The notes under the pieces: model-generated
Database searches by the model: none
What the model was told of the DNA's origin: nothing
The model's input: only the letters and a program-made list of their open reading frames with translations
NCBI RefSeq assembly: GCF_000236685.1
Contig: NC_016633.1
Span: 2,046,001-2,110,000, forward strand
DNA length: 64,000 nucleotides
Direction of reading: 5' to 3'
Source: Sphaerochaeta pleomorpha str. Grapes
GTDB lineage: Bacteria > Spirochaetota > Spirochaetia > Sphaerochaetales > Sphaerochaetaceae
Position numbers and translations under genes: made by a program
Shown: positions 39,909 to 57,167 of the stretch, one piece after another
How the letters are laid out: each line of letters begins with the position of its first letter
Numbering within the stretch: position 1 is the first letter of the stretch

Positions 39909-39990
39909 CGTATCATTGCTCTCGGTCAGATACATACCATTCAATAACAAAGATTCCATTGCCCTGGCAAATAAAGAGTAGTCTTGTACA

Positions 39991-40023
39991 AAAAAGAAAA
40001 TCCTTCCTTGATGCAAGGAAGGA
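39991..40023 (-). terminator. Rho-independent terminator of the TRAP operon
   Basis: A perfect 10-bp stem (TCCTTCCTTG / CAAGGAAGGA, loop ATG) lies about 45 bp past the permease stop. Read on the minus strand it is followed by TTTTCTTTTTT. Confidence 0.8.
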
Positions 40024-40065
40024 AAAACAGTGGAAGATAGCTACGTTTCTAGTATTGGAAGAGTA

Positions 40066-41991
40066 TCAAGAAAGCGTAGCATTATCTGGAACTTTACCTT
40101 TTTGCTTTGCGCGAAAGGTGATCAGCGAGAAGACACACAGGGCAATTACCAATCCAGCAATATCGGCAACAGGGTCGGGAACCAGGAGAAGAATCGCCGT
40201 AAAGAACATCAAAACCCGCAATCCAAGGTTGAGGGGTAGCATGCACCAGCCTTCAAAGGAAGAAGCCATGAGCAAGACAGCAAAGACAGCAATGGCGATT
40301 GCATAGAGAGTCGCCCCTATTGATGTTTCCACTATCAGCAAGCCGGGGTAATAGATAAACAGGAAAGGAATGATAAACCCTGCGATACCAAGCTGAAAAG
40401 CCTTCATCCCGGTTCTCATAGAATCAGACTCGGCAATACCTGAGGCTGCATAGGCAGCCATGGCTACCGGTGGGGTGATAAACGAAATGATTGCAAAATA
40501 AAACACAAACAGGTTGGAGGCAAGGAGACCTATACCCGCTTGCAACAACGCCGGGGAGGCGACAGTCGCTGCAATGACATAGGCAGCGGTTGAAGGCAAT
40601 CCCATCCCAAGGATGATACAGGCTATCATAGTCAAGAAAAGCATCATAAACAGGTTTCCATGCGAGAGCTGGAAAACAATCTGCGCAAAACGGACCCCCA
40701 GACCAGTCATACTGACAATTCCGATAACAATCCCTGCCGAAGCACAGGCAATGGTTACCGGTACAGAAGACTTTGCCGCATGTAGGCATACAGCCTTCAA
40801 TTCTGCCCAGGGAAACCTGTGCTCATGGGCAAGGGTTCTCACTATACCGATTATCAAGATGGAACCGATGGCAAACAATGCGGAATAGCTTGCGGAAAAA
40901 CCAAAACCCAACAGACAGAAAATCAAGACAGCCAAGGGCAGAAGGTGAAAATACCCTTGTTTCATAATTATTCTCGCGTTCAATAGTTTTGCATTTTTTT
41001 CTGGCTGGATCCCAAGACGGCCAGCTTCAAAATAGACAGCCGCACCCAGACTGAGGTAATACAATATACCGGGAACCAAAGCAGCAAGGATAATAGTCGA
41101 ATAGGCAATCCCTGTCATATCGGCCATGACAAAGGCTGCGGCGCCCATAACTGGAGGAAGAATCTGACCCCCTGTCGAAGCAACGGCCTCCACGGCACCT
41201 GCATATTCCTTCGAATAGCCGACTTTCTTCATCAGGGGAATGGTGAAAGTCCCGGTCGTCACGACATTAGCTACCGCAGAACCATTGATAGACCCCATCA
41301 GGGCGCTGGATAAAACAGAAGCCTCAGCAGGGCCTCCTCGCATTTTTCCGGTAAGTGCATAGGCAAGGTCAATAAAAAACTTACCTGAGCCGAATTTATC
41401 CAGCAACTCCCCGAAAATGATATACAGCACTACAAAAGAAACGGCAGCCCCGATCGGCGTACCGAAAATACCTTCATTGGTCCAACAGACATAGCTGGTG
41501 ATATATTCAAGGCTGTACCCGCGATGGGCGATTACATTCGGCAGATAGGGACCAAGTACCGCATAGGAGAGAAATACCAGGGCAATGACCGGAAGGGCAA
41601 GGCCGATAGCCTGACGGGAGGTCTCCAAAATCAGGAGAAGCAGCAGGAACCCTACGACCATATCCAGTGAAGTTATGCCCCAGATGCCTTTCTCACGGAT
41701 GACATCGGGAGTTGTCTGTGTCAGGTAATAGACCCCGAGGGCCAAGACAACCAGTAAAAATATTGACGAAAAGATTTTTTTTCCGATAGGTTGTTCTTTC
41801 TGGAGGCGATAGAGATACCAGACAAGCATCAGGGAAAAAAGATGAATTACCCTGGACTGCATCACACTTACTGAGGTGTTCATGGTAATGTACAGGTGAA
41901 AAAGACATATTGCTACAGAAAGGATAAAAAGGATATGCCGCAGGGTTTTTCCTTTTACTGATTGCTGGTTTTGCACGGATACTATCTCCAT
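40066..41991 (-). CDS. TRAP transporter fused permease (DctQM type, TAXI system)
   Basis: This 641-residue inner-membrane protein has about 16-17 helices. The first four (residues 15-120) correspond to the small DctQ subunit and the rest to the DctM subunit. Family signatures include SSALMGSINGSAVANVVTTGTFTIPLMKK, GGQILPPVMGAAAFVMADMTG and GMGLPSTAAYVIAATVASPAL. Fused DctQM permeases pair with TAXI binding proteins, as here. The gene follows the TAXI gene after a 79-bp gap with a strong hairpin. Confidence 0.92.
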   Translation of the reverse strand: MEIVSVQNQQSVKGKTLRHILFILSVAICLFHLYITMNTSVSVMQSRVIHLFSLMLVWYLYRLQKEQPIGKKIFSSIFLLVVLALGVYYLTQTTPDVIREKGIWGITSLDMVVGFLLLLLILETSRQAIGLALPVIALVFLSYAVLGPYLPNVIAHRGYSLEYITSYVCWTNEGIFGTPIGAAVSFVVLYIIFGELLDKFGSGKFFIDLAYALTGKMRGGPAEASVLSSALMGSINGSAVANVVTTGTFTIPLMKKVGYSKEYAGAVEAVASTGGQILPPVMGAAAFVMADMTGIAYSTIILAALVPGILYYLSLGAAVYFEAGRLGIQPEKNAKLLNARIIMKQGYFHLLPLAVLIFCLLGFGFSASYSALFAIGSILIIGIVRTLAHEHRFPWAELKAVCLHAAKSSVPVTIACASAGIVIGIVSMTGLGVRFAQIVFQLSHGNLFMMLFLTMIACIILGMGLPSTAAYVIAATVASPALLQAGIGLLASNLFVFYFAIISFITPPVAMAAYAASGIAESDSMRTGMKAFQLGIAGFIIPFLFIYYPGLLIVETSIGATLYAIAIAVFAVLLMASSFEGWCMLPLNLGLRVLMFFTAILLLVPDPVADIAGLVIALCVFSLITFRAKQKGKVPDNATLS

Positions 41992-43103: not shown

Positions 43104-44390
43104 CTAGATGCATTGTATGTCAGCATTGAGCGAAGTCATCAATTCAAAGAAGTTTGGGAAGGAAACAGCAGCATATTCGGCATTCTCAATTTCCGACGTT
43201 CCCTCGGCAATCAAAGCGGCAACAGTAGATGCCATTACGATACGATGGTCATGATGCCCTGAAATGGCTGTACCATGGAGATGAGAATGATAGATTGTCA
43301 GAGAATCAGGGGTCTCCTCAAACCGCGCACCCATCTTAGTCAATTCTTCCTTGATGGATTTGGCCCTGTCAGTCTCTTTCAGGCGACAGGCCCCAATGTT
43401 CTCAAGAACCGTCTTTCCCTGGGCATAACACCCAAGCACAGCAAGAATGGGGACTGCATCAGGTGTTCCGCTACAGTCAATCGTGATACCCTGTAAGGGA
43501 TTTCCCCCTTCGATCACGATACCGCCCCTACCGTTATCAATAACAGTGACAGAGGCACCCATATCTTTAAGTATTTGCACAAAAGCAGTCTCTCCTGCGA
43601 AATCCCCAAGGTCAAGACCTTTGAAGGTAACTTTCGACCCTTTGGTTATGGCAGAGGCAATCATAGGGTACCCAGAGGAACCCCAATCGCCAGGAAGCGT
43701 ATAGGTAAAAGCTTTGAACTTTTGATTCCCCCGGACAAAGAACTCGTCATATCCCCTGTTCTCAACCTCAATGCCGGCAATTTTCAGCATTCCAATGGTC
43801 ATATCCACATAGGGGCGCTCAAGCAAATCGGTTTCTTCGATGGTCGTATCACCTTCAGCTAGGGCACAGGCACAGAGAAAGGGAGTCATCCACTGGGAGT
43901 TTACCCCAGGCAAGGAAACCCTCCCGCCTTTGATGGGACCCTTGACTACAACAGGCGCACTACCCGTACCACGGGTAGAGAAGGCTTTTCCACCGAGGGC
44001 ATTGATTGCGTCAAGCATAGGCTGGGCAGGACGATAGCAAATCTGGTAATCACCGGTCAAAACACTGTATCCAGGGATTAGGGAACAGAGAGCGAGGACA
44101 AAATAAAAACCGGTACCGGAGTTCTCCGCGTCAAGAACACATGCAGGCACAGCCAGGGTTCCTCCGGTACCTTCAATAATCCATTTCGTATTGTCACTTG
44201 TATCAATTTTCGCCCCAAGGGCTCGCATCATGTTTACTATCGAGAAACTGTCTAAATTGGTAAGGGGATTGACCAAGGTCGAAACTCCTTCAGCAAGAGA
44301 ACCGAATATGATTCCGCGGGCAGTTCCCGACTTGTTTCCTGGTATGGTTGCTGAACCCGACAGAGTTGAGGCTTTGACTATAAATTTCAA
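43104..44390 (-). CDS. aroA: 3-phosphoshikimate 1-carboxyvinyltransferase (EPSP synthase)
   Basis: This enzyme of about 429 residues makes EPSP from shikimate-3-phosphate and PEP. It has GNKSGTARGIIFGSLAEG (substrate-binding Lys at the N-terminus), LDAENSGTGFYFVLAL (region around the usual NAGTA(M/T)R, here changed), LPGDWGSSGYP and KETDRAKSIKEEL, HDHRIVMA. TTG 44390 is proposed as start because GGAGG ends 9 nt before it, whereas ATG 44399 directly abuts that GGAGG. The NSGTGFYF segment departs from the NAGTAMRP consensus involved in PEP/glyphosate binding. It heads the TRAP operon. Confidence 0.88.
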   Translation of the reverse strand: MKFIVKASTLSGSATIPGNKSGTARGIIFGSLAEGVSTLVNPLTNLDSFSIVNMMRALGAKIDTSDNTKWIIEGTGGTLAVPACVLDAENSGTGFYFVLALCSLIPGYSVLTGDYQICYRPAQPMLDAINALGGKAFSTRGTGSAPVVVKGPIKGGRVSLPGVNSQWMTPFLCACALAEGDTTIEETDLLERPYVDMTIGMLKIAGIEVENRGYDEFFVRGNQKFKAFTYTLPGDWGSSGYPMIASAITKGSKVTFKGLDLGDFAGETAFVQILKDMGASVTVIDNGRGGIVIEGGNPLQGITIDCSGTPDAVPILAVLGCYAQGKTVLENIGACRLKETDRAKSIKEELTKMGARFEETPDSLTIYHSHLHGTAISGHHDHRIVMASTVAALIAEGTSEIENAEYAAVSFPNFFELMTSLNADIQCI

Positions 44391-44414
44391 AATTACCATC
44401 CTCCAAAACTTCAA

Positions 44415-44429
44415 TTGATTAACGTTTTC
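44415..44429. promoter_or_regulatory. Candidate regulator site 1 (aroA side)
   Basis: TTGATTAACGTTTTC, whose core AACGTT is the usual centre of LacI-family operators. It lies 25 bp from the aroA TTG. Confidence 0.45.
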
Positions 44430-44588
44430 ACTTAACAAACACAATCATACCACAGAGTTTGTATCTGTCAAATTAAATAAAATTTATTTTATTTTATTAT
44501 ATATTAATAATTTATATATTTTCTACTGCATTTATATTGAAATATATTCAGTTGAAAATAAAAGAACATATCGTAATTTTAAATAATA

Positions 44589-54335: not shown

Positions 54336-55459
54336 ATGTCATGTATTATCATTTCAACGGATTGGAGATTCAAGGAGAAATTCAAGAACCGCTTTCCAAA
54401 AAACTTTCTCATAGCTTTCAGTTTGGCTACAAAATTGATTCAGTCGGCGGAAAGAGGTTTATTTGACGGTGACGACTATATTGTCGTAGATGAAAAACTG
54501 GGGAATTACAGCCAGACTTTCCTGATAGGAGAGCTGCAAAAGGCACACAACACCACAGAAGTCTTCCTTTTCATTGACAAGGGGAACCACGGCCCTGAAC
54601 TTCCATTGGTAGACTTCCCTATAAAAATAGTGTTCAAGGACTCCCTGGATTACCCTAAGTTTTTCGAATCCCTGGAAGCATCCCGCGCTTCAACAGGCCA
54701 GAGGGCTGAACAAACCAACCGATGTTTTCGTAATTGCCTGATAGGCGAAAGCGATTGCATGCATGAAGTCCGGGAAAAATTGGCTTTGTACTCCATTTCC
54801 CCCTGCTCGATACATCTCTGTGGCGAAACAGGAACCGGCAAAGAAATTGCAGCAAACTCAATACATTCGGCAATGTATCCGTCGAGAAACATAGTAAGTA
54901 TAAATAGTTCCCTACTGGGAGGGTCTCTCGGGGATTCTATATTTTTCGGCCATGCAAAAGGCGCTTTTACCGATGGAAGAACCGAAGTCCAGGGACTTGT
55001 AGAGGAAGCCAACGGTTCGAGTCGTTTTTGGATGAAATAGAGAACCTTTCCTTAGGTTCTCAGGCAAATATGCTCAGGCTTCTGGAAACGGGACAATACC
55101 GAAGGCTGGGAGACCCCCAGATACGATATTCCTCCTTCAGGCTCATTACGGCATCAAACAAGAATCTCCAGGAATTGATTGAAAGAAACCTCATCAGGAG
55201 AGATTTCTTCTATAGGATTACCGACACAACAATCAGGCTTCCCCCCTTACGGGAACATAGGCAAGATATTCGGGAACTGACAGATTTTTACCTACAAAAC
55301 CATTTCCCTGAAAAATTTCTCGATAACGAAGATTTGATGCTTTTCGAACGGTATAACTGGCCTGGCAATGTACGGCAACTCTTCTCCACACTCAAACGTT
55401 GCGGGGTAAGAAGCGGGGATAAAGCGAGGATAGAAGTAAGCTTTGAAGACTTCGTCTAG
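54336..55459 (+). pseudogene. Sigma-54-type AAA+ regulator, frameshifted and degenerate
   Basis: Two frames form one protein. Residues 1-115 are an unrecognised N-terminal domain with a possible receiver-like fold. An AAA+ domain then opens (LCGETGTGKEIAANSIHSAM, Walker A) and stops at 55040. The rest continues in another frame from about 55020 (FLDEIENLSLGSQANMLRLLETGQYRRLG ... RRDFFYRI ... YNWPGNVRQL). A single missing base near 55023 explains the break: adding a T restores SSLFLDEIENL. The sigma-54-contacting GAFTGA loop reads GAFTDG, and no Fis-type HTH follows. AGGAGA precedes the ATG. Confidence 0.75.
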
Positions 55460-55877
55460 CATTGGATTATCCACCAGTTATCCACAAGCCAAATTAGTTT
55501 GTCATAAGTTCTTAGATGATATTCCCTTGTTTTTAAATACAGTGTCACCAAGAATTATCTCATACTGAAAGTAAAAGGACAGCTTGTGGATAACTTGTTA
55601 ACAACTTATGAAAGCAACACTTCTTACAAACCTTTCCAACCTACTAAAAACCTAATAATAATTATATAGAAACTAAAGCAAATCTGTTACAAATTAAAAT
55701 AATTAATTCTTTACAAAGGAATTAGTTGTCACTTTACCTGTATGAGTCAAAATAAAGCCATTGGTTATGCTCTCCTTCTGGCTGGGAAAGGGTCTATACA
55801 AGGTGTTATTTTTGTCTTGTGGATAACCTGTGGATAAGTATAAAAGATTATATAGGAACTCTAGTAAAAACAGGGAC
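55460..55877. other. DnaA-box-rich, AT-rich intergenic region (candidate replication origin or DnaA-binding locus)
   Basis: This 418-bp gap has no credible gene. It contains four perfect DnaA boxes (TTATCCACA or its complement) at 55478-55486, 55585-55593, 55818-55826 and 55829-55837, and one single-mismatch box (TTATCCACC) at 55467-55475. The outer boxes form two tandem pairs with an 11-bp period, pointing inward from opposite ends. Between them lies a very AT-rich stretch (about 55640-55730). No dnaA, dnaN or rpmH gene lies in the window, so origin status is inferred only. Confidence 0.6.
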
Positions 55878-57167
55878 TTACAATACCTTTTCAATAGCAA
55901 GACCAAGACCAAGGAGTTTCTGGGAAAGAGCTTCGTATCCCCGTTCGATCTGGTATATATTCTCAATCCTGGTGACTCCCTCAGCACAGGAAGCCGCAAT
56001 GACAAGAGCCATACCTGCCCGGACATCGGGACTTGTCACAATTGAGCCATGCAACCTACTCGGACCATTCACCACAGCACGGTGAGGATCACACAAAATG
56101 ATATCGGCACCCATACGAATCAGCCAGTCGACAAAAAACATTCGTGACTCGAACATTTTCTCATGTACCAGGATGGAACCTTTCATTTGTGTCGCACAGA
56201 CAGTAATGATGCTTAAAAGATCCGGGGGAAAACCCGGCCAAGGGGAATCATCGACTTTCCCCGTATGTCCACCGACTTCCCTGTATAACAAACGTTTCTG
56301 CTTTCGGGGAATAAGAATTGAGGTAGGCCCGTCGATGAGAAAATCCAACCCTATGCGTTGGAAACCCAAGCGAATCATCCGAAGATGTTCAACTTGGACA
56401 CCCCTAAGCAAAATTTCTCCGCCGCTTGCACCTGCTAAGCCGATGAACGACCCGGTTTCCATAAAATCGCTACCGAGGGTAAAGCTACAGCCATGCAGTC
56501 GTTTCTTTCCTGTGATTCTCAGCAAATTCGACCCTATACCTTCGATCTTGCAACCCATCAGGTTCAACATCATGCACAGGTCCTGGACATGGGGTTCACT
56601 TGCAGCATTCAAGACAACGCTTTCCCCCTCGGCAAGGGATGCAGCCATTATCACATTCTCGGTAGCCGTAACAGAAGTCTCATCAAGAAAAACGGTATTT
56701 CCTTTCAACCTGGAATGATTTGCATGGATATATAAAGAACCATCTTCCTCGAGACTGCAGGTAGCATCCAACGATGAAAGACCCAGAAAATGGGTATCCA
56801 ACCTCCGCAATCCGATAACATCTCCCCCCGGAGGGGTCAACCTCGCCTCTTGGCATATTGCCAGCAAAGGACCGAGGAACAGGATGGAACCTCTTACAGC
56901 CTCTACAAGCTCTTCACTGAGAAACCCTTTGCGTGTACCGCTGGTGATGTCCAGGGTGTGGGAATCGACAACTACTACCGAAGAACCGATACCTTTGAGA
57001 AGCTTACACATGACAGAGACATCCTCGATGTCAGGTACATTGCAAAGGCGGACGGTATCGTCGGTAAGCAACGTGGCGGCAAGACAAGGCAAGGCGGCAT
57101 TTTTATTGCCACTTATCGTTATTTCACCACTGGCAGGTTTACCACCCTTAATTAGATAGGCCCCCAT
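55878..57167 (-). CDS. murA: UDP-N-acetylglucosamine 1-carboxyvinyltransferase with Asp in place of catalytic Cys
   Basis: This 429-residue enzyme performs the first step of peptidoglycan precursor synthesis, with an EPSP-synthase-like fold. GNKNAALP near residue 20 holds the catalytic Lys. The loop ARLTPPGGDVIGLR places Asp116 where most MurA enzymes have the PEP-binding Cys (PGGCAIG). This natural replacement is known in Borrelia, Chlamydia and Mycobacterium and gives fosfomycin insensitivity. A promoter TTGTTA-17-TACCAT and GGGGG before the ATG suggest a short leader. It lies next to the DnaA-box region. Confidence 0.9.
   Translation of the reverse strand: MGAYLIKGGKPASGEITISGNKNAALPCLAATLLTDDTVRLCNVPDIEDVSVMCKLLKGIGSSVVVVDSHTLDITSGTRKGFLSEELVEAVRGSILFLGPLLAICQEARLTPPGGDVIGLRRLDTHFLGLSSLDATCSLEEDGSLYIHANHSRLKGNTVFLDETSVTATENVIMAASLAEGESVVLNAASEPHVQDLCMMLNLMGCKIEGIGSNLLRITGKKRLHGCSFTLGSDFMETGSFIGLAGASGGEILLRGVQVEHLRMIRLGFQRIGLDFLIDGPTSILIPRKQKRLLYREVGGHTGKVDDSPWPGFPPDLLSIITVCATQMKGSILVHEKMFESRMFFVDWLIRMGADIILCDPHRAVVNGPSRLHGSIVTSPDVRAGMALVIAASCAEGVTRIENIYQIERGYEALSQKLLGLGLAIEKVL

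Follow-up and report, generated by a model that had tools for sequence, protein, structure and literature searches.

Introduction

Off-origin control of the initiator DnaA has been worked out mainly in Escherichia coli and Bacillus subtilis, and the control of re-initiation in other phyla is largely open. In B. subtilis, six groups of DnaA boxes known as DBCs are found near oriC, outside the origin itself; the original paper on their removal is reportedly that of Okumura in 2012. According to the accessible part of a review (PMC5295017), removing all six leads to early initiation, and the same text describes the DBCs as being of minor importance in B. subtilis. In E. coli, datA is a non-coding DnaA-box locus outside oriC in which the spacing of the boxes matters, and DARS1 and DARS2 are non-coding, conserved box loci with a conserved place relative to oriC, built from a three-box core with Fis and IHF sites (PMC4585315, accessible text). 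The sites occupied in vivo by E. coli DnaA are mainly box pairs separated by 2–3 bp, as stated in the available portion of PMC11317965, and the available portion of PMC12371093 argues for E. coli that an origin-proximal position allows DnaA to be captured after initiation. For spirochetes, we found no off-origin DnaA locus described in the literature that we searched, whose coverage is partial.

Here, we analyze a cluster of DnaA boxes from Sphaerochaeta pleomorpha str. Grapes, which occupies an intergenic gap at positions 55,460–55,877 of a 64,000-nucleotide stretch of the genome (contig NC_016633.1, positions 2,046,001 to 2,110,000), hereafter referred to as the window. A preliminary description of this sequence had proposed that the cluster is either oriC, displaced from dnaA, or a DnaA-titrating locus. 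We find that the cluster is not oriC. Sequence comparison indicates that it is a conserved element, which in all likelihood is a DnaA-regulatory locus outside the origin, and which probably retains or modulates DnaA and thereby limits replication to a single start per cell cycle. We lean towards the more detailed view that it binds DnaA near oriC without initiating replication, in the manner of datA or the B. subtilis DBCs, with a loop between its two box arrays. The element makes off-origin control of DnaA directly testable in a spirochete.

Results

A cluster of DnaA boxes downstream of murA

The gap contains four perfect boxes and one near-perfect box within 371 bp. In array A, which is proximal to murA, boxes A1 (55829–55837, minus strand) and A2 (55818–55826, minus strand) are both TTATCCACA and lie 2 bp apart, forming a double DnaA box. 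Box B2, again TTATCCACA, is found at 55585–55593 (minus strand), 233 bp from A2 when measured from start to start. Comparison within the genus places a further box, B1, at 55596–55604 (minus strand); it is degenerate in the window genome (TTGTTAACA) and reads TTATCAACA or TTGTCAACA in most relatives. Box C (TTATCCACA, 55478–55486, plus strand) lies 107 bp from B2 on the opposite strand, and a second, near-perfect C box, TTATCCACC, can be read from the sequence at 55467–55475 (plus strand). The AT-rich core of the spacer around TATATA, at 55655–55680, reads TTTTTATATAGG in the orientation of murA and is conserved in the genus. The A and C pairs share a period of 11 bp (a 2-bp gap) on opposite strands, and the coordinates thus agree with the two tandem pairs that had been described.

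The genome, a single contig of 3,590,853 bp, holds 31 perfect boxes, of which four fall in the cluster, four in the gap between dnaA and dnaN, and the rest are scattered; no other group of four occurs genome-wide. Random placement of the 31 boxes reached four within 360 bp in none of 20,000 simulated genomes (Poisson estimate about 1.6e-7), which upholds the earlier claim that the cluster exceeds chance. The motif TRTCCACA shows no enrichment across the genome, with 164 matches compared to 173 for a reversed control.

The boxes had been described as lying upstream of murA. The gap is in fact downstream of it, between converging 3′ ends: that of murA (55878–57167, minus strand), which we regard as a neighbor and not as part of the mechanism, and that of a regulator gene split into two overlapping open reading frames (54336–55040 and 55028–55459, plus strand). 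The regulator is presumably of the sigma-54 type, as judged from its sequence; two relatives match both frames as adjoining pieces of one stretch, and the split may stem from decay of the gene or from a frameshift introduced by sequencing. Among relatives, the gene on the far side of the element differs, with gaps ranging from 418 bp to 9 kb, and promoter-like sites at the element occur at chance level. An RNA gene was considered and discarded, the sole Rfam match up to an E-value of 1 being a snoRNA family (E 0.43) that scores far below its gathering score. At a distance of 11 kb from murA is a 446-residue open reading frame (43104–44444, minus strand) that we take from its sequence to be AroA/EPSP synthase-like; AroA/EPSP synthase is a structural relative of MurA.

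The origin lies between dnaA and dnaN

As had been noted, neither dnaA nor dnaN is in the window. Both are found just past its end, about 14 kb from the cluster, at contig positions 2116568–2117935 (dnaA) and 2115241–2116335 (dnaN), each on the minus strand. The gap between them (G000:C1:2116336–2116549) contains oriC, in which the last box is followed by a run of DnaA-trios. In all 24 genus genomes with dnaA, including two in which dnaN fell off the locus, this gap has four to eight boxes with no more than one mismatch, whose positions are largely constant, and a trio run such as CTATTATTACTATTATTACTA lies at a set distance beyond the last box, TTATCCACA. When formulated strictly, using the definition in the available part of PMC6669920, the trio pattern matches the gap in all 24 of these genomes and in 20 of 27 genomes outside the genus; several of the seven that do not match are genomes in which no dnaN was located and only downstream sequence was read. 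No trio run is present in the element itself in any of 25 genus genomes or 22 others. In a separate observation on oriC, the gap of G034 (genus g18; G034:C291:3424–3674) was found to hold 16 perfect DnaA boxes, many of them paired with an 11-bp period.

The GC skew points to the same place. The cumulative skew, calculated over 204 kb around the window, has its minimum at 2111300, with a plateau extending to about 2117 kb. With dnaA as the common reference point in eight genus genomes, all 2-kb bins from −16 to 0 kb are negative and those from +6 to +14 kb are positive, so that the sign changes near dnaA–dnaN in every genome. No sign change occurs in any of the eight at the element, which lies about 14.5–14.7 kb from the end of dnaA (+14.5 to +14.7 kb). 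A skew minimum and a box cluster, which the preliminary description had named as evidence against an origin in the window, are therefore found elsewhere, and a full oriC with boxes and trios sits at dnaA–dnaN. The idea of an oriC displaced from dnaA was abandoned on these grounds.

Conservation and geometry within the genus

The preliminary description had suggested looking for the boxes in close relatives, and they are present there: arrays A and B are kept in all 25 genus genomes with murA (26 genomes were used, one without a murA match and two without dnaA). In the orientation of murA, the layout consists of pair A (TTATCCACA, 2-bp gap, TTATCCACA) and, 233 bp on, B2, often with TTATCAACA (B1) ahead of it; in some genomes only, box C follows 107 bp further on the other strand. 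A1 is found within one mismatch in 22 of the 25 genomes. The distance from A2 to B2 is 233 bp in 22 genomes, 232 bp in two, and 231 bp in one, where the positions of A2 and B2 were entered by hand and A2 of G037 (ATTTCCACA) is a manual assignment. The 213-bp spacer, which contains the motif TGACAACT in addition to the AT-rich core, shows ungapped identities of 0.30–0.97 among those 22 genomes, with a median of 0.46. As a control, we measured the other intergenic gaps longer than 150 bp between dnaA and murA in eight genomes; their lengths vary by 14, 49, and 65 bp, and that of the oriC gap by 2 bp. Given that a fair constancy of length is seen in other gaps near dnaA as well, the strictness of the A–B length is notable rather than unique.

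Box C is less widespread. Of the 24 genus genomes whose sequence extends that far, 10, including the window genome, have it with at most one mismatch; the downstream sequence of G037 ends at 285 nt, and this genome is not among the 24. The second C box is seen within one mismatch in the window genome alone. The mirrored arrangement described earlier is thus real in the window genome but partly peculiar to it, and what relatives keep is arrays A and B on the same strand.

Several further signals in and around the spacer were examined. For 14 A–B spacings outside family f23, representing lineages that are not independent, helical phasing gave a Rayleigh p of about 0.0004 at 10.5 bp; with f23 included, p is 0.23, and phasing across all families was discarded as not significant. 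No match to the E. coli IHF consensus occurs between arrays A and B in 24 genus genomes, where a spirochete bending protein with another motif could act instead. In 12 of 24 genomes, an IHF-like match at a constant position turned out to be the TTATCAACA-NN-TTATCCACA box pair itself and was not counted. An inverted repeat that stood out by eye in the interval from B to C (TAACTCAC...GTGAGTTA) was also set aside: a 9-of-10-bp repeat at this position is present in 8 of 24 genomes (shuffle p 0.010–0.035), mostly from one clade, and is missing in the window genome.

Distribution across the class and independence from murA

Among 199 genomes of the class, 174 have a murA match, and we read the stretch downstream of murA in 86 of these from outside the genus, selected to represent a range of families, some of them by several genomes. 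Arrays are present in 22 of the 86, distributed over f1 (9 of 10), f2 (2 of 2), f3 (2 of 2), f15 (1 of 1), and f23 (8 of 9). The 62 genomes from other families never have more than one box downstream of murA. Named carriers include Sphaerochaeta sp. S2, Sphaerochaeta sp. MAG5, and a Pleomorphochaeta MAG. In carriers with dnaA and murA on one contig, murA mostly lies about 8–15 kb from dnaA on the dnaN side, as calculated by subtraction of match positions; the exceptions are G022, at 27.5 kb, and G219, at 38 kb and on the other side of dnaA.

The element is also found without its usual neighbor. In G016, which has no murA match at the cut-off, a TTTTCCACA-type array is located at 39980–40202, 8.8 kb from dnaA, between rsmE and the next ancestral gene. 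G013, likewise without a murA match, has the element adjoining ctp, 48 kb from dnaA. The murA flank of G160 is devoid of boxes, and an array (0, 54, 255) is found at 1908216, 6 kb from dnaA. In G010, an array adjoins lgt. We also scanned 20–60 kb on or around dnaA for a second array in 19 genomes outside the genus. No second perfect-box array was found in the scanned stretches of G113, G127, G128, G130, G148, G258, G263, and G269, all without a murA-linked element, with G130 having one weak group of three imperfect boxes; nor was there one in the stretch scanned in G170, whose murA flank is unread. G009 has lost the element and kept the gene order. Because of this loss and the absence of the element from the other sampled families, it is dispensable over evolution. 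As for murA itself, at least 16 genomes of the f1 genera g13 and g16 lack a MurA match at E 1e-90; the two that were looked at, G013 and G016, both keep the element near dnaA.

A box dialect shared with oriC

The boxes of the element tend to be of the same type as those of oriC in the same genome. Within the genus, TTATCCACA/TTGTCCACA predominates in both. Genus g11 (G011, G042, G051, and G057) has no canonical boxes and 4–9 TTTTC[CA]ACA boxes in oriC and element alike, with TTATCAACA present at most once. G016 has four TTTTC[CA]ACA boxes in oriC, together with one canonical box, and six in the element, and in g4 (G004 and G024), TTATCCAC[C/G] accounts for two to three of the boxes in both places. 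Family f23 is an exception, as its trio-proximal oriC boxes have diverged and the element keeps TTATCCACA, and the dialect rule is therefore imperfect. We consider this tracking to be the strongest evidence for the predicted binding of the same initiator at the element and at oriC. Co-variation of dialect offers a general way to recognize genuine DnaA loci without binding data. In g11, the change amounts to a dialect shift of the initiator site, the DnaA box itself having moved to TTTTC[CA]ACA in both oriC and element.

Discussion

The earlier suggestion of a DnaA-titrating locus is supported as a type of locus, in that the position, spacing, and dialect of the boxes are conserved at a place close to oriC but not part of it. 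The sequence shows the boxes, their geometry, the dialect tracking, the oriC-proximal place regardless of neighbors, and the lack of trios; what we infer is that DnaA occupies the boxes, that a loop forms, and that the effect is negative. In the model that we propose, DnaA would fill double box A plus the box or boxes at B, about 22 helical turns away, and would probably bridge the two arrays with the AT-rich spacer looped out, giving a defined nucleoprotein complex. The fixed A–B separation suggests such a looped complex, and array A, often B too, has the paired form, with a 2-bp gap, that E. coli DnaA favors in vivo. Because the element lies about 15 kb from oriC, it would be duplicated soon after initiation, and the extra copy could retain or inactivate DnaA at the very time when a second initiation has to be avoided. 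The place next to oriC suits a capture of DnaA after initiation, a principle that the deletions of the B. subtilis DBCs support (PMC5295017). For the specific proposal that the element acts negatively, by sequestration or inactivation of DnaA, we judge the chances to be evenly balanced. Simple titration may be weak, since three to five boxes hold few DnaA molecules. Hda is the DnaA inactivator of E. coli; the window genome has no match to Hda above the curated cut-off, the best match being DnaA itself.

The conserved boxes and the strict spacing would also fit a positive DnaA locus, either one that reactivates DnaA-ADP in the manner of DARS or one that loops to oriC 15 kb away and delivers DnaA there to aid initiation. 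DARS1 and DARS2 of E. coli are likewise conserved in sequence, spacing, and relative position, as far as the accessible text of PMC4585315 describes them. However, both lie far from oriC, at 17.5 and 64 min (PMC5295017, accessible part), and an origin-proximal place suits a negative role better, which leads us to regard a positive role as rather unlikely. Even less probable is a role in transcription, in which DnaA positioned between converging genes would block read-through or regulate murA or the regulator gene. The converging 3′ ends in the window are in keeping with this, but the element persists without murA in G016 and G013 and away from it in G160, the far-side gene is variable, and promoter-like sites do not exceed chance. 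We rejected regulation of murA as the principal explanation, given that the element lies 3′ of this gene and persists without it.

Two other explanations appear highly improbable to us. That the element is oriC or a second active origin could be argued from the box arrays flanking an AT-rich core, had the skew not remained unchanged there in all eight genomes, with the skew switch and the trio run both at dnaA–dnaN. A relic of an old origin would account for a box type equal to that of oriC in each lineage, but would not be expected to hold 9-mers and a near base-exact spacing while the spacer falls to 30–46% identity, nor to follow changes of dialect, and a chance cluster is contradicted by the simulations.

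Our preferred reading, an oriC-proximal locus that binds DnaA without initiating, matches datA and the DBCs as far as the anatomy goes. Like the DBCs, the element is a non-origin group of boxes near oriC; unlike the six DBC loci, it is a single locus with a fixed layout that is kept across families. It shares with datA, the DnaA-ATP hydrolysis and titration locus of E. coli, its non-coding nature and its location outside oriC, and its boxes have a conserved spacing, as a counterpart to the spacing that matters in datA; datA lies much farther from oriC than about 15 kb. In addition, datA is described, in the part of the literature available, as needing an IHF site between its boxes 2 and 3, for which the element has no E. 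coli consensus counterpart between A and B. With the DnaA-reactivating sequences DARS1 and DARS2 it has in common a non-coding, conserved set of boxes at a conserved place relative to oriC, but the three-box core with Fis and IHF sites is replaced by a pair, 233 bp, and the B box or boxes. The oriC of the same genomes has the box dialect in common with the element, which lacks the trios and the skew switch. On sequence criteria we would thus class it neither as datA, given the missing IHF site, nor as oriC.

More tentatively, and with considerable doubt, we suggest that several spirochete families possess a DnaA-cycle locus of their own that evolved apart from datA and DARS, in which two arrays at a fixed helical distance would form a DnaA-bridged loop next to oriC and switch the activity of DnaA after each initiation in a genome without recognizable Hda. 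The candidate locus is compact, occurs in five families of the class with a fixed geometry, and comes with lineages that have lost it and provide a natural control.
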